From assembly GCF_003112435.1 (NCBI RefSeq), contig NZ_BDOQ01000006.1, positions 124,001 to 188,000 on the forward strand: a stretch of 64,000 bases of DNA. The letters run 5' to 3'. Position numbers and translations under genes: made by a program. This DNA is from Novimethylophilus kurashikiensis (GTDB lineage: Bacteria > Pseudomonadota > Gammaproteobacteria > Burkholderiales > Methylophilaceae). The notes beneath the pieces are model-generated. The model saw nothing but the letters and a program-made list of their open reading frames with translations, was not told the DNA's origin and made no database searches. Shown piece by piece: positions 4,761-38,762 of this stretch; within the stretch, counting starts at the first letter, position 1; the number at the start of each line of letters is the position of its first letter.

Positions 4761-6035
4761 ATGAACGCACAAATCAACCAACTCGCGCGCAAGCTCGGAC
4801 CCGGCCTCATCACCGGCGCAGCGGATGACGATCCCAGCGGCATCGCCACCTACTCCCAGGCCGGTTCGCAATTCCGCTTCGGCCTGGTGTGGACGCTCTG
4901 CCTCACGACCCCTCTCATGATCGGCATCCAGATGCTCTCGGCGCGCATCGGCTGGGTGACGCGGCAGGGGCTCGCCGCCAACATCGCCAAGGTCTGCCCG
5001 CGCTGGCTTACGTTATCGCTGGTCCTGCTGCTGGTCGTCGCCAATACCATCAACATCGCGGCCGACCTGGGCGCCATGGGCGAAGCCTGTCGCCTGCTGG
5101 GCGGCGGCCACGTTGCGCCTTACATCATCGGCTTGGGTCTGCTGTCGATGGCGGGACAAGTCTTTTTCTCCTACGAAGGCACGGTGAGTATCCTCAAATG
5201 GCTGACGCTAGCCTTGTTTTCCTATGTCGCGGTGATTTTGTCGGTCAACGTCCCGTGGAAGCACGTCACTATTGAATCACTGCAGCCCTGGGCGTACCTG
5301 CCCAAGGGCATCTCGTTGAGCGACTACGCCGAGATCGTCGTCGCTGTGCTGGGCACCACCATCAGCCCGTATCTGTTCTTCTGGCAGGCCTCGCAAGAGG
5401 TGGAAGACAACGCACGACGCCCCGAGGCTGCAGCCTTGCACGACAACCCGGAATACGCCGCGGAGCACTTGGCGCGCATCAAGCAGGATACGGTCATCGG
5501 CATGCTGTTTTCTAACGGCATCGCCTTGTGCATCGTCCTGGCGACGGCGGTCACGCTCAACACCCACGGCGTCACCAACATCCTTACTGCGGCTCAGGCA
5601 GCGGAAGCCCTGAAACCCATCGCCGGGGAATTCGCTTTCGTCTTGTTTGCACTGGGCATCGTGGGCACCGGTATGTTGGCAGTGCCGGTACTGGCAGGCT
5701 CTGCGGCGTTTGCAGTGAGCGAAGTCTTCGGCTGGAAAGCTGGGTTATCGCATGGTTTCCACGAGGCGCGCGGCTTCTACGCCATCATCATTGCCGCTAC
5801 CGCACTGGGCACTATCATGGGCTCCCGCGAGGTCGACCCGATCCGGGCCTTGCTGTGGAGTGCCGTGATCAACGGCGTGATCTCGGTGCCGATCATGTTC
5901 GTGATGATGAAAATCGGTCAGTCGGAGACCATCATGGGCGATTTCATCATCGCCGCGCGTCACCGGTTTCTAGGCTGGGCTGCGACGGGAGTGATGGCGC
6001 TGGCGGTGGGATTCATGCTGGTCTCCAGCTTCTGA
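4761..6035 (+). CDS. NRAMP-family divalent metal transporter, atypical binding site
   Basis: A 424-residue inner-membrane protein with about eleven hydrophobic helices. Helix 1 reads GLITGAADDDPSGIATYSQA, so the canonical metal-binding DPGN of MntH-type NRAMP is replaced by DPSG. Helix 6 reads GTTISPYLFFWQASQE, where the methionine that selects transition metals in classical NRAMP is replaced by serine. These changes place it in the NRAMP-related branch rather than with MntH, and by analogy magnesium or another hard cation may be the substrate, but this is inference. The ribosome binding site AAGGAG is well placed. It stands alone, between a long structured leader and a convergent two-component system. 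Confidence 0.85.
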   Translation: MNAQINQLARKLGPGLITGAADDDPSGIATYSQAGSQFRFGLVWTLCLTTPLMIGIQMLSARIGWVTRQGLAANIAKVCPRWLTLSLVLLLVVANTINIAADLGAMGEACRLLGGGHVAPYIIGLGLLSMAGQVFFSYEGTVSILKWLTLALFSYVAVILSVNVPWKHVTIESLQPWAYLPKGISLSDYAEIVVAVLGTTISPYLFFWQASQEVEDNARRPEAAALHDNPEYAAEHLARIKQDTVIGMLFSNGIALCIVLATAVTLNTHGVTNILTAAQAAEALKPIAGEFAFVLFALGIVGTGMLAVPVLAGSAAFAVSEVFGWKAGLSHGFHEARGFYAIIIAATALGTIMGSREVDPIRALLWSAVINGVISVPIMFVMMKIGQSETIMGDFIIAARHRFLGWAATGVMALAVGFMLVSSF

Positions 6036-30123: not shown

Positions 30124-31622
30124 GGCGCGTCGCTTCCGGCCCAGGCATCCTGCAAGGCCATTTCCTCGGGCGTCAGTCCGGCAGCGCCCACCCGGCCCTT
30201 GAATGCGCGATCGACCAAATACGCGGCGTTAGCGAGGTGCATGTCTTCTGGCACGCGCTGGCCGTTGGTGACGTAATGCAGGTCGAGTCCGTAGCGGATG
30301 AGGCAATCCAGCGCCGGTGCAAGGGATACGGACTCGTCGATCTTGGTCAGGATGCAACCGTCCATGCCGGCGCCGCGATAGGCCCGTACGATGTCGTCCA
30401 GCGTCACACCCTGCGCCGTTGCCGGCAACAACAGTTGTCGCTGCACGCGATTGCCGCGTCCACAGAGGAACTCGATCTGCTCTGCGATGCGTCTGTCCCT
30501 TTGGCTCATGCCGACAGTATCGATCAGCACCAGATGACTGCGGCGCAGATCGGCAAGGGTCAATTCAAGCTCGGCTTCGTCCTTCACGGCATGGACCGGT
30601 ACGTTGAGGATTCGGCCGTAAATGCGTAGTTGTTCGTGAGCACCGATCCGGTAGCTGTCAGTCGTCAGCAAGGCCACGTTTTGTGCGCCGAACTTCAGCA
30701 CGGCGCGCGCGGCGAGCTTGGCGACCGTGGTGGTCTTGCCTACGCCGGTAGGGCCAACCAAGGCAATGATGCCGCCGCGCTCGATGACATCAGCACCTGG
30801 TTCGACTGCCCGAAGATTGTGTGTAACGGCGGCACGCAGCCACTTCATGCCCCTTTCGAAATCCAATCCGCGCGGCATTGCATCGGTTAGCTTGCGCGAC
30901 AAGGTCGGGCTAAATCCGGCCGAGAACATGGCGCGCAGCAACTCGGCCTTAAGCGGATCGTTGCGTGCGAGTTCGCCCCAGGCAAAACCGGACAATTGCC
31001 CTTCAAGCAAGTTGCGCATGCGTTTCAGCTCTCGCGCCATTTCGGCGACAAGGGCTTCGGAAGAATTGGCAGGGATATCGAAATCCAACTCGCGCAACGG
31101 CTCTCGCTGATTCAGCCGGAAAGGGTCTTCCTGACGCTGCTGCGGTTCGGGTTCAGGCTCGGCCTGTGGGGGCGGCGTGAAATCGCGGGCGATAGTTGGG
31201 CGAGAATAGGTCGGCGGCTCGTCTTCCTGGTCCGGAGCAGCTGCAGCTGGTTGCGGCGTCGTGCGTATGGTCTCGAATACCGGCGCACGAATCGTTTGCG
31301 CCGGACCGATATTGCTGTTCGACTCGGATTGACGACGATGCAGAATCGCAGCAATGGTTTCGGCACCAATCGCCGGGACCGGCTGAGATGAACGTGGCTC
31401 TGCAGGTTTGACCTGGGTTGGTTGGGAAGGTTGTTTGGTCGTCAAGTGTTGACGGGGATTTTCATAGGTGAGTGCAGCAACTTCACCATCGGCCACTGCC
31501 ATGATCTCGACACCGCCGTCCACCTTGCGATTAGAGAGGATGAGCGCATCGGCCCCGAGGGCATCTCGCACTTGCCTGAGCGCGTCGCGAGTATTGGAGC
31601 CGAAGAATTTTCTAACGTTCAT
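30120..31622 (-). CDS. flhF: Flagellar-placement SRP-type GTPase FlhF
   Basis: A 500-residue protein. An N-terminal basic region (MNVRKFFGSNTRDALRQVRD) is followed by a long Pro/Gln-rich linker, an N domain and the SRP-type GTPase domain with GPTGVGKTTTVAKLAARAVL, LIDTVGMSQRD and ILTKIDE. FlhF recruits the first flagellar ring to the cell pole. It is the first gene of the flhF-flhG-fliA-motC-motD operon on this strand. The usual upstream neighbour flhA is absent; the DoxX gene of the peptide operon lies upstream instead, separated by 227 bp. Confidence 0.95.
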   Translation of the reverse strand: MNVRKFFGSNTRDALRQVRDALGADALILSNRKVDGGVEIMAVADGEVAALTYENPRQHLTTKQPSQPTQVKPAEPRSSQPVPAIGAETIAAILHRRQSESNSNIGPAQTIRAPVFETIRTTPQPAAAAPDQEDEPPTYSRPTIARDFTPPPQAEPEPEPQQRQEDPFRLNQREPLRELDFDIPANSSEALVAEMARELKRMRNLLEGQLSGFAWGELARNDPLKAELLRAMFSAGFSPTLSRKLTDAMPRGLDFERGMKWLRAAVTHNLRAVEPGADVIERGGIIALVGPTGVGKTTTVAKLAARAVLKFGAQNVALLTTDSYRIGAHEQLRIYGRILNVPVHAVKDEAELELTLADLRRSHLVLIDTVGMSQRDRRIAEQIEFLCGRGNRVQRQLLLPATAQGVTLDDIVRAYRGAGMDGCILTKIDESVSLAPALDCLIRYGLDLHYVTNGQRVPEDMHLANAAYLVDRAFKGRVGAAGLTPEEMALQDAWAGSDAP

Positions 31623-31849
31623 AGGGCCTTTTTCGAGAGGACAAGACCCTGTTGCGTTACCAACGAACGCTCACGGGTTAAATCGGACGTGGTTGAAATT
31701 TGCGCCGCCATGTCTGCGCAAGTTTAACACGGGAAAACGGGCACAAAAAGCACATTTACCGGATTCTTGCTGGCCTCTGCTTTTCCTTACAATACAAGCG
31801 CTTTCGACCGACATCAAAACTCGTTCCAAAAGACGGGAAACACCGTCAG
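31623..31849. other. Non-coding gap between flhF and the hvf operon
   Basis: No gene or strong hairpin is seen in these 227 bases. The part next to hvfX is AT-richer. It presumably contains the 3' end of the hvf operon and the promoter of flhF, but no sigma-54 (GG-N10-GC) box was clear by eye. Confidence 0.4.
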
Positions 31850-32383
31850 TTACTGCACGAGCGATGCCCTATGCCCCTTTAAAAAATAACGGGATAACCA
31901 GCCATCCAGGCTCAAGTACCCCGCTCCTCCAAACAATAACGGCAGAAACATCGCCAAATAAATAACAGGCAACTTGTAATTTCCAAATCCGTCCCCGTCT
32001 TCATCGACGATACGATAGCCCTTGAGCAACTCGCCCACGGTATGCCAATGCTCAGGCCAATGGACAGCCGCGATTGCCACTGTCGTCAGGACCATCAGCG
32101 AAATCGCAAAAAATCGCGTTGCCACCCCCAACAGCAGCGCCAATGCACCGACCAGTTCGAACCACATCGACAACTGCCAACTCACATCGGCAGGCAGCAA
32201 GCTGAAAGGAAAGGGAAACGTCACATCGGCAAACCAGTTTGTCCCCATCAGCTTCTCATAGCCGGATTCCCCGAATTCCCAGGCGAGGATCAAGCGCAAG
32301 GCCAGGGGCGGAATCACGGGGGCAATGCGCTGCATCCATGCAGCAAGCACAAGATAAAATGAAATTACTTTTGGCATCGTCAT
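31850..32383 (-). CDS. hvfX: DoxX-like membrane protein of the modified-peptide operon (HvfX-type)
   Basis: A 177-residue membrane protein with four hydrophobic helices of the DoxX fold, for example PLALRLILAWEFGESGYEKL and WFELVGALALLLGVATRFF. The loop IVDEDGDGFGNYKLPVIYLA has a DxDGDG acidic pattern like a calcium-binding loop, which I recall as common in HvfX-type DoxX proteins. It is the last gene of the operon, and its start overlaps the DUF2063 stop by 4 bp (ATGA). In the HvfABCX system it helps mature or handle the copper-binding peptide at the membrane. Its biochemistry here is inferred from operon position. Confidence 0.8.
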   Translation of the reverse strand: MTMPKVISFYLVLAAWMQRIAPVIPPLALRLILAWEFGESGYEKLMGTNWFADVTFPFPFSLLPADVSWQLSMWFELVGALALLLGVATRFFAISLMVLTTVAIAAVHWPEHWHTVGELLKGYRIVDEDGDGFGNYKLPVIYLAMFLPLLFGGAGYLSLDGWLSRYFLKGHRASLVQ

Positions 32384-33135
32384 GTTGTCCTTGCTCCTAA
32401 AATAGCCTGCTCTGCCCGCAGATTTTCAAGAATGGCGAGCCCTCCACGGAGAATCACCTCAGGCTGAGGATGATTCAGCTCCTCCGCAATATTCATAAGC
32501 GCCTTCCTACCCGATTCGCCCTGCTGGATGCGTTGCAACAAACCAATGCTTAGCTGGTTCAGCACAATAAACTTGACCTCATGATCCGGCCGACGGAACG
32601 CTACGATATGCGTAGGCTCAGTATCGGCTTGCGTAGGTTTATAGCGCGGCCCGATGCGGTGGACGGGGAAATCGTAAGTCAACAACATGAGCGCCGATGC
32701 CAGGACTGGTATACCATCCAGCAAGCTCCCGGAAGGTTCCCATGCATCATCAGGACAAACGGCATCGGAAAGCGCCAACGCCAATTCAACCCACTCGTAA
32801 TGGGCGAGGTTAGCAAGAAATGGAGGAAGCGCATCCTCACACGGTGCGCTCTGCAAATAATCCAGAAACGCTTCCGGAATCTGCCGAAACAGCGGCGTGG
32901 CGCACCGATGCTCGGCGATAAATGCACGTACCAGCTTCGTCCACACCCGCTTGCCAAGCACTTTGCGCGAGACCGGAAAACACGCTGATAAAGTTTCGTC
33001 GAAATTGGCATGGACAATCTCGGCATAGACTTTCATGCCACGTGCCTTTGTCCCTGCCGGTCGACAGACCTGCTGCGGATCGCGAATATAGTCTGTGAAG
33101 GCGTGTTGATATTGTTGAAAGTCGAGCGTTCTCAT
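32380..33135 (-). CDS. hvfC: DUF2063 partner protein (HvfC/BufC-type)
   Basis: A 251-residue soluble protein. The N-terminal DUF2063 domain spans about residues 5-95, with [18 protein letters not shown] and [20 protein letters not shown]. The start at 33135 was chosen because it overlaps the DUF692 stop as ATGA and gives [12 protein letters not shown]; a longer start at 33156 is possible. DUF2063 proteins pair with MNIO enzymes and bind the peptide substrate to present it to the iron centre. The C-terminal half, including [20 protein letters not shown], resembles a small winged-helix-like domain, which I cannot assign. The gene lies between hvfB and hvfX. Confidence 0.85.
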
Positions 33136-33980
33136 GCCGCGTCCCTGCTCGCCCATTGGTCTGAAGCGGTTAGTAGACTGGCAATCCGCCCGACCTCGCC
33201 GATTAACTCGGGGAGCGGCGGAATGTTGATATCGCGTTCAAGCAAGGTCGGAACTGCACCGAACAGGCGGTAAGCCTCTGCCAACAGCTCCCACACCGGC
33301 TCTATCACCGGTTCGCCATGGGTGTCTATGATGAGGTCCGGCGCCTCTTGCCAATGCCCGGCGGTATGTATGTAGACGACACGCTCGGCAGGGATGGCAT
33401 TCAGGAATTCATAAGGATCGAAATCGAAATTGACGCTGTTGACGTAGACGTTGTTCACGTCCAGATGCAAATCGCAATCCGCTTCGGTCAGCACGGCCAG
33501 CACGAATTCGATTTCGCTCATTTCAGCGATGGGTGCCGCGACATAGAAGGAAGCATTTTCGACTGCAATGCGCCGCTCCAGGATGTCTTGGGTCCGTCGA
33601 ATACGGGCGGCGACATGACGGACAGCCTCTTCAGTAAATGGAATAGGCAGCAGATCGTAGAGATACCCCCCGGCGCTGCAATAACTCAGGTGCTCGGTGT
33701 AGAGCGCAATCCCATGCCGATCGAGAAACGCTTTGGTCTGCCGTAAAAAGGCTTCATTGAGCGGATCAGGCCCACCCAGCGATAACGATAGACCATGCGC
33801 AACGAAGGGATAACGTTCTATGAACCACGCTAACTGCTCGGCTCGACGCCCACCTACACCGATCCAGTTCTCGGGAGCGATTTCGAAGAAATCGATGACA
33901 GGGGGAACGCCCGCTTGAAGCGGGCTCATCAGTTCCCGCTTCAAGCCAAGGCCAGCCCCCGTGAGTCCACGGGGTTTCAT
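33132..33980 (-). CDS. hvfB: DUF692 multinuclear non-heme iron oxidative enzyme (HvfB/BufB-type maturase)
   Basis: A 282-residue TIM-barrel enzyme of the DUF692/MNIO family. Expected metal ligands are present: H62 ([12 protein letters not shown]), E96 and H97 ([13 protein letters not shown]), E141 and N142 (VENASFY), D174 with N176-N177 ([10 protein letters not shown]), H205 and H209 (IHTAGHW), and D219, H221 and E223 (IDTHGEPV). The family uses two or three iron ions to oxidise cysteine side chains and backbones of a precursor peptide into thiooxazole or oxazolone/thioamide groups. It starts 12 bp after the small precursor gene and overlaps the DUF2063 gene by 4 bp. Which product it makes here cannot be told from sequence. 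Confidence 0.92.
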
Positions 33981-33992
33981 TGCATTCCCCGA

Positions 33993-34322
33993 TTAGTGCT
34001 TCATATCGGAACTGCAGTTGCCGTCCTTCATTTTCTTGTCGGCGCTGCAATTACCTTCCTTGGCCTTGGCATCGGCTTCAGCCTGCTTTTCCTTCATTGC
34101 TTTTTTCTTGCTGCTGCCGCACTTGCCGGTGGAACACTTGCCGTCCTTCATCTTGCCGTCGGCGCTGTCCATGGCCTTTTCTGCGTCAGCCACCATGTAG
34201 CCATGGGCAAGCGGTTGCATGGAGAACGGATTCTGTTCGGCCTGGGCGACAGGCGCCATGCTCAGTGATGCAGCGACCGCTCCGCCCAATGCAACTGCCA
34301 CCATCTTTTTCTGTACCTTCAT
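33993..34322 (-). CDS. hvfA: Secreted cysteine-motif precursor peptide (HvfA/bufferin-like)
   Basis: A 109-residue protein. A Sec signal peptide (MKVQKKMVAVALGGAVAASL, cut after APVAQA near residue 28) precedes a mature part rich in Lys, Ala, Asp and Gly. It has only four cysteines, at 63, 68, 92 and 103, each in the frame G[K/N]C[S/G]: DGKCS, TGKCG, EGNCS and DGNCS. Classical members carry repeated EGKCG, where the cysteine is oxidised and then binds copper. Here only the second core is exact at GKCG, so it is a divergent member. A good ribosome binding site, AAGGAG, precedes the start. It lies directly upstream of its maturase gene. The modification is inferred, not observed. Confidence 0.82.
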   Translation of the reverse strand: MKVQKKMVAVALGGAVAASLSMAPVAQAEQNPFSMQPLAHGYMVADAEKAMDSADGKMKDGKCSTGKCGSSKKKAMKEKQAEADAKAKEGNCSADKKMKDGNCSSDMKH

Positions 34323-34361
34323 TGCAAACTCCTTGTTGATGTTAAAAGATCGGGTAATCGC

Positions 34362-34610
34362 TCAATCATGCCCGTGCAAGGCTCGACGGATGCGTTCTGC
34401 GGCTTCTGACGGCAGCCTCACTGTTTCATCCTGTTCAGCCCGCAGCGCAAAATGCCGCAGCGCCTGACGCAACCACGCCATCTGCCGGGAAAACTCGCGA
34501 CAGGCGTCGCACACCGCCAGATGCAGCCGCAACGCCATACGTTCACGCCAGCCGAGCCGTCGATCCTGCGACTGCGAAACGAGCCGGCTGGCTTCCTTAC
34601 AGCTCAGCAT
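34362..34610 (-). CDS. Zinc-finger anti-sigma factor
   Basis: An 82-residue soluble protein. It begins MLSCKEASRLVSQSQD and holds the zinc-binding anti-sigma pattern H30-x3-C34-x2-C37 (LHLAVCDACREF). No membrane helix is seen, so it is a cytoplasmic ZAS-type sensor of the ChrR/zf-HC2 sort, in which loss of zinc or oxidation of the cysteines frees the sigma factor. Its start lies inside the end of the sigma-factor gene (14-bp overlap), a usual arrangement for cognate pairs. Forty bases downstream begins the precursor peptide gene, so it is probably part of the same operon. Confidence 0.85.
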   Translation of the reverse strand: MLSCKEASRLVSQSQDRRLGWRERMALRLHLAVCDACREFSRQMAWLRQALRHFALRAEQDETVRLPSEAAERIRRALHGHD

Positions 34611-35217
34611 TACGATCTCCCAGCCAGTTCATTTCCAGACATTTCCTCAGGCCCATCCGAGCGCGATACAGCATCACCCATGCATTGGTCGTGCTGACTT
34701 CGAGTTCCTTACAAATTTCTTCATTTTCTTTTTCCTCGATCTCGCGCAGCAGGAAAATCCGCGCCAACGCTTTGGGCAACCGGTCGAGGCAGGTCTGCAG
34801 CACGCCCCAGAACTGCTGCTGTTCCAGCAACGCAGCCGGGTTGCCCAACGATGACGGCGGCTCCGTCCAATGTCCGTCTTCCAGAAAGAAATCATCCATG
34901 CCCGGCGGCAAGTCACCATCGGAAAATTCCCCATCGGGCAAGGGCGCTTCGCGTTGAGCGCGGCGGAAGTGGTCGATGATCTTGTGTTTGAGGATGCCGG
35001 TCAGCCAAGTGCGAACGGCGGATTTTGCGGCAAAACCCTGGCCGTTTTTCGCAGACAATGCCGCAAGCAGGGTTTCCTGCACGGCGTCTTCGGCGAGGTG
35101 CGGATCGCGCAGGCGCAGCAAGGCGTAGCGGTAGAGATAATCGCCGTGCTCGACAAGCAAAGCGTCTCCGGAAATGTGGGTCACCGTGAATACCTGAGAT
35201 CGAGATACGGCAAGCAT
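34597..35217 (-). CDS. ECF-type sigma factor of the modified-peptide operon
   Basis: A sigma-70 family protein of up to 206 residues. Region 2 shows GDYLYRYALLRLRDPHLAED and VRTWLTGILKHKIIDHFRRA; region 4 shows ARIFLLREIEEKENEEICKE and VSTTNAWVMLYRAR. The acidic linker between them is long. The start at 35217 gives MLAVSRSQVF; GTG at 35184 (VTHISGDALLVEHGDYLYRY) is a better match to the family beginning, so the first 11 residues are uncertain. The pair with the zinc-finger gene immediately downstream suggests self-regulation and control of the following four genes. No convincing ECF promoter could be fixed by eye. Confidence 0.88.
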   Translation of the reverse strand: MLAVSRSQVFTVTHISGDALLVEHGDYLYRYALLRLRDPHLAEDAVQETLLAALSAKNGQGFAAKSAVRTWLTGILKHKIIDHFRRAQREAPLPDGEFSDGDLPPGMDDFFLEDGHWTEPPSSLGNPAALLEQQQFWGVLQTCLDRLPKALARIFLLREIEEKENEEICKELEVSTTNAWVMLYRARMGLRKCLEMNWLGDRNAEL

Positions 35218-35256
35218 ACCAGCAAGGCGGGCCGCATCGAATGCCCAGTGGCTAGC

Positions 35257-35694
35257 TTACTCGGCAGCCCGTTTGCGCATGCATTCCAGATATGCGCCGG
35301 CATCGGGTGGAGTCTTATCCCGCTGGGCACGCCATACTGTTTCGGCAAGGCATTCCATCAGTCCGTGGAGCGCTTCGTGCTGATCATCAAGCCTTTGCTG
35401 CAAGGCGCGGTAGGCCGCGGCAATGCCGGGCGGCTGGTCAATGGAAAGCTGTTCGAGGATAGAAAGATGCAGGCTCATGTGGAGGAAAGGATTGGTCTCG
35501 CCCATTTCTGGGAAATAGTCCTGGTCCCGATAGCGATCCGGCGCATCCAGCACGGCATGGTATTCCGGATGCAAGGCAATCACTTCGACGGCCATGCCTT
35601 CCAATGCGGTCAAGGGCTCGGAAACGCGATATTTGCGCCAGGCTTCAAAGAAGAATTGGCGGACTTCGTCGCGACTGGGGTTGAACAGGGCCAT
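35257..35694 (-). CDS. DUF1841 family protein
   Basis: A 145-residue soluble protein that opens MALFNPSRDEVRQFFFEAWR, the signature of DUF1841 as I know it. It also contains ETNPFLHMSLHLSILEQLS and ends with MECLAETVWRAQRD. The family is common in Proteobacteria and functionally undefined. It starts 9 bp after the stop of the FIST gene and so is probably the last gene of the rnf-nth transcript. The ECF sigma gene begins 39 bp (or 72 bp with the later start) downstream on the same strand. Confidence 0.8.
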   Translation of the reverse strand: MALFNPSRDEVRQFFFEAWRKYRVSEPLTALEGMAVEVIALHPEYHAVLDAPDRYRDQDYFPEMGETNPFLHMSLHLSILEQLSIDQPPGIAAAYRALQQRLDDQHEALHGLMECLAETVWRAQRDKTPPDAGAYLECMRKRAAE

Positions 35695-35703
35695 GCATAA
35701 ATC

Positions 35704-36768
35704 CTAATGAAACAGGCCTAAGACGGCCGAATATTGCAGCAACTCGTTGGTCCCATTAATCGGCGCGATTTCTCCGTTGCCGTAGAACCCGATGAAAGGC
35801 ATGCCCGGAAAGCGTTGTTGCAAGCGCTCCAGATCGCGGTCGATGCCGCTGTAGAGATACGGCCCACGCCCCAGGCACGAAAACAACAGGCCGAACTGCG
35901 GGGCTGCGCCTAATCCTGCTGCTAGCTTATCGATGGTATGGGCGAGGTCGGCCTCGGCTGCATCGGCCTCGCGCAGCGCCCAGAATACCAACTGTTCCGG
36001 TTCCACCAAGCGTGCCAACGTCACCGTTCGGTCGGTCTCGTTTGCACATACCAGGGGCGCCAGTCGATAGTTGCCATGCTTGAAAGCCTCAAGGGAGTCA
36101 GCAATACCCGCCATCAGCCGGTGTAAAGGCAAGTCCGGTTGGTCTGGATATGCGCGTTGCAGGGTATCCAGTGCCGGCTTGCCGCCGAGAAATACGATGT
36201 CGTGGCCGACGGCAGCTGTCACCGGCTTGGGTTCGCTCAAGACGCGCACGCCGTGTGCCGCCCCCACCGCCCCTGTCGCTCCCTGAATGGCCAGTTCGCA
36301 ATGTCCGTCGGCGACGCCTTTACCGTTCCGCCAGATCGAAAACGGCCCTTGCCCGGTGGCATCGCCCGAAATGCCACCGAAACGGCGCCCGGGGGTAGCC
36401 AACCAAGTCGTATTGACCGCATTGGGCGCAGCCAGCGACAGCAATAACTGCTGGGCCTCAGGGCGCGGCTCGGCCGCCAATCCGTAGCCATTGCCGAACA
36501 CCATGGCAGCAGCGGCAGGAGCGTCGAGCACCCAGTCCTGCTCGGTAAAGATTCCGGGTGCGGAACACCCCACAACCTGCACGCAACTCGCGGCAGCCCC
36601 AGCGGCCATCAGTGCAGGTTCGGGGTTGCGAGCGAATTCGGAAGTTAAAAACAGCAGGACGCTGTTGGCCACCTGGAGATCGGCGTTTGCCAGCGCCTCG
36701 CTGACGGCGCGCCGCGCCAATTCCGGCTTGTGCTCGCGCCCCAGTGCCAGCCCCGTGCCGACGTTCAT
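35704..36768 (-). CDS. FIST-domain sensor protein
   Basis: A 354-residue protein of FIST_N and FIST_C type. The N-terminal part shows ANSVLLFLTSEFARNPEPAL and CVQVVGCSAPGIFTEQDW; the C-terminal part shows FGLLFSCLGRGPYLYSGIDR and FIGFYGNGEIAPINGTNELL. FIST domains are thought to bind small ligands such as amino acids and are often coupled to signalling, but no kinase or cyclase domain is fused here. The start at 36768 overlaps the nth stop as ATGA; a longer frame to 36849 overlaps nth by 85 bp and was not chosen. Its position between nth and DUF1841 gives no clear clue to the ligand. Confidence 0.82.
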   Translation of the reverse strand: MNVGTGLALGREHKPELARRAVSEALANADLQVANSVLLFLTSEFARNPEPALMAAGAAASCVQVVGCSAPGIFTEQDWVLDAPAAAAMVFGNGYGLAAEPRPEAQQLLLSLAAPNAVNTTWLATPGRRFGGISGDATGQGPFSIWRNGKGVADGHCELAIQGATGAVGAAHGVRVLSEPKPVTAAVGHDIVFLGGKPALDTLQRAYPDQPDLPLHRLMAGIADSLEAFKHGNYRLAPLVCANETDRTVTLARLVEPEQLVFWALREADAAEADLAHTIDKLAAGLGAAPQFGLLFSCLGRGPYLYSGIDRDLERLQQRFPGMPFIGFYGNGEIAPINGTNELLQYSAVLGLFH

Positions 36769-37406
36769 GCCATGAAGCCCGTTTTGGCCTTGTATTCGCA
36801 AAGCTCGACCAGCACACATTCCGGACATTTGGGTTGCCGAGCGATGCAAACGTAGCGCCCATGCAGGATAAGCAGGTGATGGGCATCGTGCAGATATTCC
36901 TTGGGCACGACTTTCACCAGTTTTTGCTCGACCTCCAGCGGCGTTTTTCCCGGCGCGAGACCAATGCGATTGCCGAGGCGGAATATATGAGTATCGACGG
37001 CGATGGTGGGTTGGCCGAAGGCGGTGTTGAGGATGACGTTGGCGGTCTTGCGCCCCACGCCGGGCAAGGCTTCCAGCGCCTCCCGTGTATTCGGCACTTC
37101 GCCGCCGTGTTGTTCGACCAGAATGCGGCAGGTCTCGATGACGTTCTTGGCCTTGCTGCGATACAAGCCGATGGTACGGATATATTGTTCTAGCCCTTCT
37201 ACACCCAGCGCCAGGATGGCAGCGGGGGTATTGGCGACCGGAAACAGCTTGGCCGTCGCGATGTTGACGCCCTTGTCAGTCGCCTGCGCGGAAAGGATCA
37301 CCGCAATCAGCAACTCGAACGTGCTGGAGTGGTTAAGCTCGGTGGTGGGATTGGGAATGGCGACCGCCAGCCGGCGGAAAATCTCGCGGACGGTGGCGGC
37401 CTTCAT
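36765..37406 (-). CDS. nth: Endonuclease III
   Basis: A 213-residue DNA glycosylase/AP lyase of base-excision repair that removes oxidised pyrimidines. The helix-hairpin-helix and catalytic lysine are in LEALPGVGRKTANVILNTAF, the catalytic aspartate is in VDTHIFRLGNRIG, and the iron-sulfur site is C-x6-C-x2-C-x5-C at the end (CIARQPKCPECVLVELC). It lies 7 bp after rnfE, the same neighbourhood as the rsxABCDGE-nth cluster of E. coli. The iron-sulfur cofactor connects it with the isc genes elsewhere in the window only by function. Confidence 0.96.
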   Translation of the reverse strand: MKAATVREIFRRLAVAIPNPTTELNHSSTFELLIAVILSAQATDKGVNIATAKLFPVANTPAAILALGVEGLEQYIRTIGLYRSKAKNVIETCRILVEQHGGEVPNTREALEALPGVGRKTANVILNTAFGQPTIAVDTHIFRLGNRIGLAPGKTPLEVEQKLVKVVPKEYLHDAHHLLILHGRYVCIARQPKCPECVLVELCEYKAKTGFMA

Positions 37407-37413
37407 TCAGCGA

Positions 37414-38118
37414 TTAGTGGCCGTGCGCCATCGCCGTATCCACCGGCGCAGAGCTCGCGTTGCCGGCCTTTGCCTGCCGGCGTTGTTCCAGCCAGTTGCG
37501 AGTGGCAACAAGCAATGCCAGGCCCATGAAGGCACCGGGCGGCAACACGGCCAATAAGAAGCCTTGATAATGCGGCACCACGGTAATCACGAACTGCTTG
37601 GCTGCCGGACCGAGTGCGAGATCGATGCCGGAGAACAGCGTCCCCTTGCCGATGACTTCGCGGATACCTCCCAGGATCGCCAGCACCAACGCCAGGCCCA
37701 GGCCCATCATCAAGCCATCCAATGCGGAAGGCGCCGTATTGTTCTTGGCCGCGAAGGCCTCCACCCGTGCCAGCACAATGCAGTTGGTCACGATGAGCGG
37801 GATGAAAATTCCCAGCACCAGATGCAGCGCGTGCAGGTAGGCGTGCATAGCCAAGTCGCCCACCGTCACCAGCGCGGCGATGATAAGGATGAATACGGGA
37901 ATCCGAATCTCGCTCGGTACCCAACGGCGCACCGGCGATACCGACGCATTGCTGGCCGCCATCACCAGTGCCGTCAGCAGGCCCAGGCTGAAGCCGTTGA
38001 CTACACTGGTGGTCACCGCCAGCGTGGGGCACAGGCCCAAGAGCTGGACGACACCGGGATTCTGCCGCCACAGGCCGTTTTGGACGATTTCCTGATACTG
38101 ATTGGTTCCCTGGCTCAT
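37414..38118 (-). CDS. rnfE: Rnf/Rsx complex membrane subunit E
   Basis: A 234-residue inner-membrane protein with about six helices, beginning IVQNGLWRQNPGVVQLLGLC and containing GIFIPLIVTNCIVLARVEAF. The paired cysteine-bearing helices resemble RnfA and are thought to hold an in-membrane [2Fe-2S] centre between the two subunits. It is the last subunit gene of the rnfABCDGE cluster and overlaps rnfG by 4 bp. The hydrophilic C-terminus (QRRQAKAGNASSAP) is longer than usual for enteric RsxE. Confidence 0.95.
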   Translation of the reverse strand: MSQGTNQYQEIVQNGLWRQNPGVVQLLGLCPTLAVTTSVVNGFSLGLLTALVMAASNASVSPVRRWVPSEIRIPVFILIIAALVTVGDLAMHAYLHALHLVLGIFIPLIVTNCIVLARVEAFAAKNNTAPSALDGLMMGLGLALVLAILGGIREVIGKGTLFSGIDLALGPAAKQFVITVVPHYQGFLLAVLPPGAFMGLALLVATRNWLEQRRQAKAGNASSAPVDTAMAHGH

Positions 38119-38762
38119 GATGCGTTTCCTTGTTTGGCCGCGGCGAATAATTCGTCACGATGCGCGCCGAAATACTGCAAGGTCTTATGCACGGCCTTGA
38201 CCACTGCGCGCGGCGTAATGGTGGCGCCGGTCATGTAATCGAAGGTGCCGCCGTCCTTCTTCACTTTCCATGCGTCGTCAGGCGTTTTGGCAAGCGATTG
38301 GCCGTCGAAGTTCTTCTTGATCCAATCGCTATGACCGATATCGATGTAATCACCTAGCCCCGGCGTCTCCTTGTGAGCCAACACACGCACGCCGACAATC
38401 TCACCATCGGCCTTGAGCGCTACCAGCATCTTGATATCGCCGCTATAGCCGTCCGGCGCCGTGGTTTCCAGGATCACCGCCGAGGGTTGGCCGTTCAATC
38501 GAGCGCGCACGGCTTCCGTCTCATCGCGGTTGCCGAGTTCGCCACCGGCGGGAATTTTCTTCACGTCTTTCAGCAAATCGTTGTCGTGCATCGACTCCGG
38601 CAGAATCTGGCGGAATAAAGCCATGCGTGCTTCCGCCTCGCTCTTGGCGATAGGCGCACGCGTGGTGCTGAAGGTGAAAGCCAGGATGGCGGTACCGATG
38701 ATGGTGAAACCGATCATCACACCAGTCGTGCTCAGCGTATGTTTAATTAAAGATTCGCTCAT
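38115..38762 (-). CDS. rnfG: Rnf/Rsx complex subunit G, covalent FMN carrier
   Basis: A 215-residue protein with one N-terminal membrane anchor (LSTTGVMIGFTIIGTAILAF) and a periplasmic domain. The flavinylation site is FDYMTGATITPRAVVKAV, where the second threonine of the TGAT motif receives FMN through ApbE. The start at 38762 overlaps the rnfD stop as ATGA; a longer frame to 38816 was not chosen. Together with rnfD it passes electrons through the outer side of the membrane during ferredoxin:NAD exchange coupled to ion movement. Confidence 0.95.
   Translation of the reverse strand: MSESLIKHTLSTTGVMIGFTIIGTAILAFTFSTTRAPIAKSEAEARMALFRQILPESMHDNDLLKDVKKIPAGGELGNRDETEAVRARLNGQPSAVILETTAPDGYSGDIKMLVALKADGEIVGVRVLAHKETPGLGDYIDIGHSDWIKKNFDGQSLAKTPDDAWKVKKDGGTFDYMTGATITPRAVVKAVHKTLQYFGAHRDELFAAAKQGNAS

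Follow-up and report, generated by a model that had tools for sequence, protein, structure and literature searches.

What does a sigma factor govern when its gene opens a peptide operon, and where is its promoter? The question is raised by a stretch of 64,000 nucleotides from Novimethylophilus kurashikiensis (contig NZ_BDOQ01000006.1, positions 124,001 to 188,000), referred to here as the window, in which six adjoining minus-strand genes (31850–35217) encode an extracytoplasmic function (ECF) sigma factor, a ZAS anti-sigma factor, a small secreted peptide, an enzyme of the MNIO family, its HvfC partner and a DoxX-like membrane protein. Together they make up a captophorin (HvfABCX) operon with control of the sigmaE/MseR type. 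Judging from sequence comparison, it is likely that the operon has a dedicated local sigma/ZAS switch whose sigma-dependent promoter lies inside the sigma factor’s own gene. The kind of operon and its ZAS-type control are known already; the embedded promoter and an altered substrate motif in the peptide look new.

The proposed promoter spans 34685–34712 on the minus strand, within the sigma coding sequence (34597–35217), and reads towards the anti-sigma and peptide genes. It comprises a −35 box, GTAAGGAAC (34704–34712), a 12-nt spacer and a −10 box, CGACCAA (34685–34691), and it occupies codons 169–178 of the sigma gene, in the region-4 helix-turn-helix. The site fits the pattern of its clade, GTMAGGAAY-N12-CGWCYAA, with 0 mismatches, and the window has no other match even when 2 mismatches are allowed. 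Across the 3.69-Mb, 32-contig genome, the form GTMAGGAAN{12,14}CGWCYAA has one exact match, which is this same site. The original prediction had described a single sigma-driven operon of six genes. While the genes do adjoin, the sole exact site lies within the sigma gene, past its start, and the sigma gene would therefore stand outside its own regulon. The clade element suggests kinship with the neisserial sigmaE promoter, whose motif (GTMAGBWTT-N12/13-CGTCTAAH) was fixed beforehand. A scan for sigma-70 promoters over 31500–35700 on both strands found none. In loci with an upstream sigma gene, inspection by eye of the region directly before the peptide gene revealed no conserved element, only a T-rich stretch and a ribosome-binding site, and a promoter at that place was dropped as a candidate.

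Since the element falls in a helix-turn-helix, its conservation could be a by-product of codon and protein constraint, with all six genes forming one autoregulated operon as in Neisseria and the promoter located upstream of the sigma gene. Neisserial operons are autoregulated in this manner (PMC2893595), the helix-turn-helix peptide is itself conserved, and a few relatives carry a site 57–216 bp before the sigma frame (loci L046, at 4605, and L055). In loci with the sigma gene in first place, the neisserial motif gave a recurrent weak match within that gene, and this site was the best one there in 55 of 60 sigma genes versus 586 of 1200 synonymous shuffles. The excess over the shuffles is in favour of the embedded promoter, but the shuffle count shows that the protein sequence alone also favours the place. 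The codon evidence weighs more for this reason.

Third-base entropy was calculated for 164 codon columns from 60 distinct sigma genes located upstream of MNIO, after identical proteins and open reading frames (ORFs) longer than 330 aa had been dropped. The four lowest values belong to codons 169 (0.00), 176 (0.12), 170 (0.24) and 171 (0.62), against a median of 1.68, and all four codons lie within the two boxes (GTMAGGAAY and CGWC). Spacer codons 172–175 range from 0.99 to 1.82, and within the second box codons 177 and 178 have values of 1.05 and 0.92, respectively. The Cys169 codon is TGT in all 60 genes. Residue 170 is Lys (AAG) in 52, Gln (CAG) in six and Asn in two, the A of AAG and the C of CAG being the letters that M stands for in the neisserial motif. 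Residue 176 is variable (21 Pro, 16 Ala, 13 Ser, nine Thr and one Leu): parsimony on a quick sigma tree, from which that region was left out, gives it 20 changes. Nevertheless, 59 of the 60 genes have G as the third base of its codon. These codons are under DNA-level constraint in addition to protein constraint. Both the G that persists at codon 176 through about 20 residue changes and the invariant TGT count against a mere by-product, as does the intergenic position of the element where the sigma gene points the opposite way. In addition, with up to 3 mismatches allowed, no site of the neisserial type was found on the minus strand of 31700–38200. Autoregulation from an upstream promoter is accordingly considered unlikely.

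The embedded promoter is also favoured by the distribution of the element among related loci. When sigma genes were scanned for the pattern, leaving out ORFs that were <420 nt or out of frame, 58 of 62 upstream-placed genes contained it at up to 2 mismatches, while their synonymous shuffles averaged 2.72 mismatches. The element begins 92–125 nt before the sigma stop codon in 60 of the 62. Over 181 loci, searched on both strands at up to 1 mismatch, there were 87 matches versus 2 in reversed sequences. As first listed, 55 of these were in sigma genes and 32 elsewhere, five of the latter being actually located in broken or short sigma genes (L013, L046 at 5190, L047, L081 at 5314, and L144). A positive control was provided by nine loci with the neisserial gene order, a label that reflects gene order and not taxon: the neisserial motif precedes doxX in seven of them, with 0 mismatches in four, one mismatch in one and three mismatches in two. 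The clade element itself precedes doxX in L002, L012 and L021 (1 mismatch each) and in the Neisseria-order loci L185, L188 and L189.

Among 90 loci with no sigma-ZAS pair found upstream (34 of which have <1800 nt before MNIO, so that a pair farther away is possible), nine have the pattern within 300 bp upstream of the peptide gene, compared with 0 in reversed sequences and 1 on the other strand. Four of the nine (L079, L176, L181 and L182) have a divergent sigma gene, and the site lies ~100 bp outside the sigma homology, between the sigma gene and a ZAS-peptide-MNIO cluster. The longest ZAS frame in L181 and L182 begins 70 bp before the site, and the ZAS start codon is unsettled there. By sequence comparison, the internal arrangement appears to be kept in Methylophilaceae, Thiobacillus, a genome of Gallionellales and further lineages, and several loci with another gene order have the same promoter-like site in an intergenic position. 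One Thiobacillus sp. locus (L081, 3296–6852) has two tandem sigma-ZAS-peptide units; the sigma ORF of the second is short but retains the element at 5314.

A signal other than a promoter, e.g., an operator or an RNA-processing or translation-coupling element for the anti-sigma gene, could also constrain these bases. The element of the window ends 74 nt before the ZAS start, its distance from the sigma stop codon is held within the narrow range given above, and its TAAGGA resembles a ribosome-binding sequence. Still, the two blocks, with 12 bases between them, look like a sigma promoter known from the literature, and the element occurs in the same orientation before doxX, ZAS and peptide genes where there is no sigma coding sequence. 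We regard a non-promoter signal as quite improbable.

Aside from the bias of the protein sequence, a number of results weigh against an embedded promoter that serves this operon. The clade pattern was derived and refined on the same loci on which it was scored. Against the neisserial motif the window site has 4 mismatches of 17 positions, and matches of that quality are near chance level in 31700–38200 (six, versus 4.0 in shuffles). The pattern exceeds 2 mismatches in four of the 62 upstream sigma genes, and it is found in none of ten sigma genes located behind MNIO, a contrast that is partly one of protein, as their own shuffles average 5.33 mismatches. Some sites outside sigma genes have no evident target, such as four in L081. 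A wider sigma regulon in the genome is unsupported, with 17 looser matches at up to 2 mismatches versus 34 in a backwards control, i.e., chance level. Oxidative stimuli left sigmaE expression unaltered in Neisseria (PMC2893595), so redox sensing is unsettled even there. Finally, a looser form of the element, GT[AC]A[GC]-N16-CG[AT]CNAA, is present in 21 of 40 further TIGR02943 loci, none of the 21 having a same-strand MNIO or HvfC gene within 4.5 kb downstream. The other 19 lack the looser form: 14 have neither element nor MNIO/HvfC, four have MNIO/HvfC upstream, and one (L260) has MNIO downstream yet no element. The 40 were picked from the top of a list, omitting several loci beside captophorin genes (e.g., L208, L211, L214 and L223), where the element is present at 0–2 mismatches. 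Specificity of the internal element for captophorin operons was rejected because of the 21 loci with the looser form. The element therefore belongs to a sigma-ZAS design that is wider than captophorins, and it may serve the anti-sigma factor first.

As this family also has sigma-ZAS pairs with no captophorin genes in their vicinity, the operon could be an ordinary captophorin operon beside a pair that is mainly a general stress regulator, adjacent by chance. However, the single exact site in the genome faces the captophorin genes, and the homologous sigma factor controls the homologous cluster in Neisseria and Haemophilus (PMC2893595, PMC7907618). Furthermore, a sigma-ZAS pair is found directly upstream in 42 of 80 loci retrieved via MNIO (it is absent from 32, and six are too short), which indicates that the six-gene arrangement is not due to chance. 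Chance adjacency to a general stress regulator is thus very improbable. By the same count the operon is ordinary as a family member, as an upstream sigma-ZAS pair is common in related loci.

The identity of the genes is well supported by family models. All six ORFs are present on the minus strand with overlaps or short gaps, as had been predicted: the sigma and ZAS genes overlap by 14 bp, MNIO and HvfC by 25 bp and HvfC and DoxX by 4 bp, with gaps of 39 bp from ZAS to peptide and 12 bp from peptide to MNIO. The sigma protein has Sigma70_r2 and Sigma70_r4 domains and scores 203.7 bits with TIGR02943 (cut-off 162.2). Its first in-frame ATG gives 206 aa, and the family match begins only at residue 20, so the ATG may be too early and the GTG at residue 12 the real start. 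The anti-sigma factor (34362–34610) is a small protein of 82 aa with no membrane segment apparent by eye. It matches zf-HC2 and the anti-sigma factor family NF052368 (79.6 bits; cut-off 50), and at E ≤ 0.001 the genome contains no other zf-HC2 match. The cytoplasmic H-x3-C-x2-C protein of the original prediction is borne out, as C4, H30, C34 and C37 conform to the ZAS pattern C/H-x(23–26)-H-x3-C-x2-C in a soluble protein beside its sigma factor.

The MNIO (DUF692, HvfB family) at 33132–33980 is an iron enzyme that modifies ribosomally synthesized and post-translationally modified peptides. It scores 406.4 bits with NF003818 (cut-off 360), and the genome has no second MNIO match at E ≤ 0.001; among the named MNIOs found, that of Methylobacillus sp. 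MM3 is the nearest (78% over the best segment). Similarity to PDB 3BWW (E 2.9e-73) extends to the conserved His/Asp/Glu/Asn blocks, which presumably hold the iron-binding residues, and the residues K14, R15, D250 and I251 are of note. HvfC (DUF2063; 32380–33156) scores 265.3 bits with NF050145 (cut-off 142) and matches PDB 3DEE, a DUF2063 protein of N. gonorrhoeae (E 7e-12), while the DoxX-like membrane protein HvfX (31850–32383) scores 128.4 bits with NF050144 (cut-off 80). The HvfABCX class assignment stands, given an HvfB-family MNIO adjoined by a DUF2063 partner, i.e., a captophorin or MNIO-PME1 cluster, and a secreted, Cys-rich precursor beside it.

That precursor (33993–34322) has a signal peptide, recognized by eye, a leader resembling ENPF..GYMVAD (NPF..GYMVAD in the window) and four core Cys. 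The predicted Hvf-class peptide is recovered insofar as signal peptide, leader and locus position are shared with the peptides of relatives. It is not the standard precursor, however: it lacks the EGKCG repeats of Buf_EGKCG/oxazolin (HvfA) precursors and scores only 20.2 bits with the HvfA model NF050188 (cut-off 95). By analogy with relatives, the product is probably a copper-binding peptide. The original prediction also drew a contrast with NrsF-type control, and rightly so: the proteins of the operon gave no Pfam match to DUF2282 or NrsF up to E = 1. The locus is thus not of the SigF-NrsF bufferin type, which we take to be the system of Caulobacter.

The altered motif raises the matter of the enzyme that must accept it. 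The window MNIO belongs to a supported clade of 28 sequences, mostly from Methylophilaceae, and the core Cys of its peptide occur as DGKCS, TGKCG, EGNCS and DGNCS. In peptides of the 28 clade members, the residue after Cys is Ser in 82 cases, Gly in 65, His in 15 and another in nine, whereas Gly accounts for 256 of 265 in the other 48 sequences. The clade motif has moved away from KCG in the direction of (K/S/A/N)C(S/H). In an AlphaFold model of the fontiphorin enzyme FonB, Phe250, the neighbour of the proposed catalytic base Asp249, touches positions 3 and 5 of the substrate, and the F250D mutant can process a variant left unprocessed by the wild type (PMC13097082). The equivalents in the window MNIO are I251 and D250, the latter being the presumed catalytic base.

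From 189 MNIO sequences, 182 remained once identical cores were removed, and 168 had a usable peptide (a candidate in L114 was removed as a false ORF). At least 40% non-Gly residues after Cys were observed in 29 of 34 sequences with a non-aromatic residue at this site versus 2 of 134 with an aromatic one. Outside the clade, the corresponding fractions are 2 of 5 non-aromatic and 2 of 133 with Phe or Tyr. Of four independent pairs, two agree, none opposes and two show no difference, which is not significant; the co-variation of motif and enzyme residue comes mainly from one clade. Within the clade, L002, the sole member to keep Phe, has Cys-Gly only, and L013 and L069, with Ser at the site, have Gly after Cys throughout. 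Outside it, L144 has Leu at the site and Ala or Ser after all six Cys. The proposition that a residue other than Phe at MNIO 251 by itself predicts non-Gly after Cys, set before the wider search, was rejected owing to three counter-examples outside the clade: the Neisseria-order loci L184, L188 and L194 have Ser or Asn at the site and Gly after all or nearly all Cys. Loss of Phe would be a permissive change at most. Several loci from Nitrosomonadaceae and some Thiobacillus (L009, L014, L015, L018, L019, L027, L030, L034 and L080) encode precursors with apparent EF-hand-type segments behind a short Cys core, and a second type of EGKCG precursor with such segments has been described (PMC12452194).

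Taken jointly, these results make it fairly likely that the helix-turn-helix codons of the sigma gene also spell the promoter that the sigma factor reads, such that inhibitor and effectors are switched on but the sigma factor is not, and that in the same clade the enzyme and its substrate motif have changed in concert at residues that are in contact in a model.

The genes upstream of the sigma gene are close-packed: DUF1841 (35257–35694), FIST (35704–36849) and an ORF (36765–37406) that we take to be nth-like. FIST and DUF1841 are directly upstream of the sigma gene (35257–36849 in the window) in many Methylophilaceae (L005, L016, L025, L036, L049, L051, L053, L056 and others). In two Methylophilaceae loci (L058 and L066), the sigma pair is absent between DUF1841 and the peptide gene, and the shifted peptide motif is kept. 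DUF1841 also precedes the peptide gene in gammaproteobacterial Thiogranum/Thiohalobacter loci with no sigma gene found (L032, L048, L050, L061 and L064), and the location therefore looks old. Two other boxes were noticed by eye. A TGnTT(G/C)AAT-like box, located 5–12 nt before the sigma ATG in L002, L003, L005, L025, L041, L073 and L077, is perhaps an extended −10 promoter that gives a nearly leaderless sigma mRNA; it is not obvious before the sigma start of the window. The second, GAAACTTT(T/C) followed ~15 nt later by TGTC, is upstream of the peptide gene in gammaproteobacterial loci with no cis sigma gene found (L022, L024, L028, L029, L033, L043 and L052) and is possibly the promoter of another ECF factor.

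From the arrangement of the window and what is known of relatives, we infer the following circuit. The sigma factor would be made from an upstream, probably housekeeping, source, either by read-through from the close-packed upstream genes or from a housekeeping promoter. The ZAS zinc-thiol protein would hold the sigma factor and set it free once its own Cys ligands are oxidized or attacked by metal, as in Haemophilus and RsrA-type proteins. Free sigma factor would then initiate transcription at the site in the 3′ end of its own gene, with a start near 34678, ~6 nt past the −10 box (the spacing reported for Neisseria), and a ~70-nt leader ahead of ZAS, whose frame starts at 34610. ZAS, peptide, MNIO, HvfC and HvfX would be on this transcript, but no intact sigma gene. 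Unlike in Neisseria, the sigma factor would not amplify itself: the circuit would yield the effectors together with an inhibitor that feeds back negatively. MNIO and HvfC would convert the peptide cysteines to thiooxazoles, and the exported peptide would bind copper, as is known for relatives. If true, this would be a natural case of a regulator and its target site being written in the same bases, in a circuit that has been retained across deep divergence and has its own brake but no self-amplification. Two literatures are linked here, those of copper/thiooxazole peptides and of ZAS-controlled sigma factors, and the clade offers a natural enzyme-substrate series for an MNIO selectivity residue found by modelling and mutagenesis.

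The ECF control that had been predicted is right in kind but not new, as ZAS control of this gene set has been published for two genera (PMC2893595, PMC7907618). In N. meningitidis, NMB2140–2145 constitute one six-gene transcript for a DoxX-like protein, three proteins that were unknown at the time, sigmaE and the ZAS protein MseR, which requires Cys4, Cys34 and Cys37 (PMC2893595); Cys4, His30, Cys34 and Cys37 of the window protein have the same residue numbers as in MseR. This locus and NGO1943–1948, whose product is gonophorin, share six gene kinds and probably a promoter type with the window (PMC2893595, PMC13097082). They differ in order, which is DoxX-peptide-MNIO-HvfC-sigma-ZAS with a promoter before DoxX and the sigma gene in its own regulon, while the operon of the window opens with the sigma gene, which contains the promoter-like site. 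The neisserial order was seen in L153, L183–L189 and L194, and it fits the NMB and NGO locus numbers.

In H. influenzae, a sigma factor held by a ZAS protein (RpoE2 and HrsE) likewise governs the DoxX, COG3767, UPF0276 and DUF2063 genes of the hvf (oxazolin) cluster, all four being RpoE2-dependent after HOCl. In that species, the sigma pair is unlinked to the cluster and acts in trans, and the regulon takes in msrAB (PMC7907618). 5-Thiooxazoles are present in the products of Haemophilus and Neisseria, and copper binding is a general property of the class (PMC13097082). Fontiphorin FonABC, which also makes 5-thiooxazoles, shares the MNIO-PME1 pair, and its Asp249 and Phe250 map to D250 and I251 of the window through the ERD-F motif. 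It differs in that the window peptide lacks EGKCG repeats and Ile replaces the Phe250 equivalent. The SigF-NrsF bufferins resemble the window in having an ECF sigma gene near MNIO peptide genes and differ by their NrsF and DUF2282 (Buf1) precursor. Sigma genes are mentioned for Buf1 and not Buf2 clusters in the text of a survey of the MNIO landscape, where none is listed for EGKCG clusters (PMC12452194).

A literature search, with most subscription papers outside its reach, found no report of an internal promoter in this sigma family. The nearest proven case of an internal anti-sigma promoter is sigH-rshA of Corynebacterium glutamicum, where the SigH-controlled promoter PrshA is located inside sigH and drives only rshA, not sigH (PMC3489674). 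As proposed for the window, a sigma-dependent promoter lies within the sigma gene and has the anti-sigma gene as its target. In contrast, the promoter sequence is another one, the host is an actinobacterium, and the transcript is reported to cover rshA only, with no peptide operon attached.

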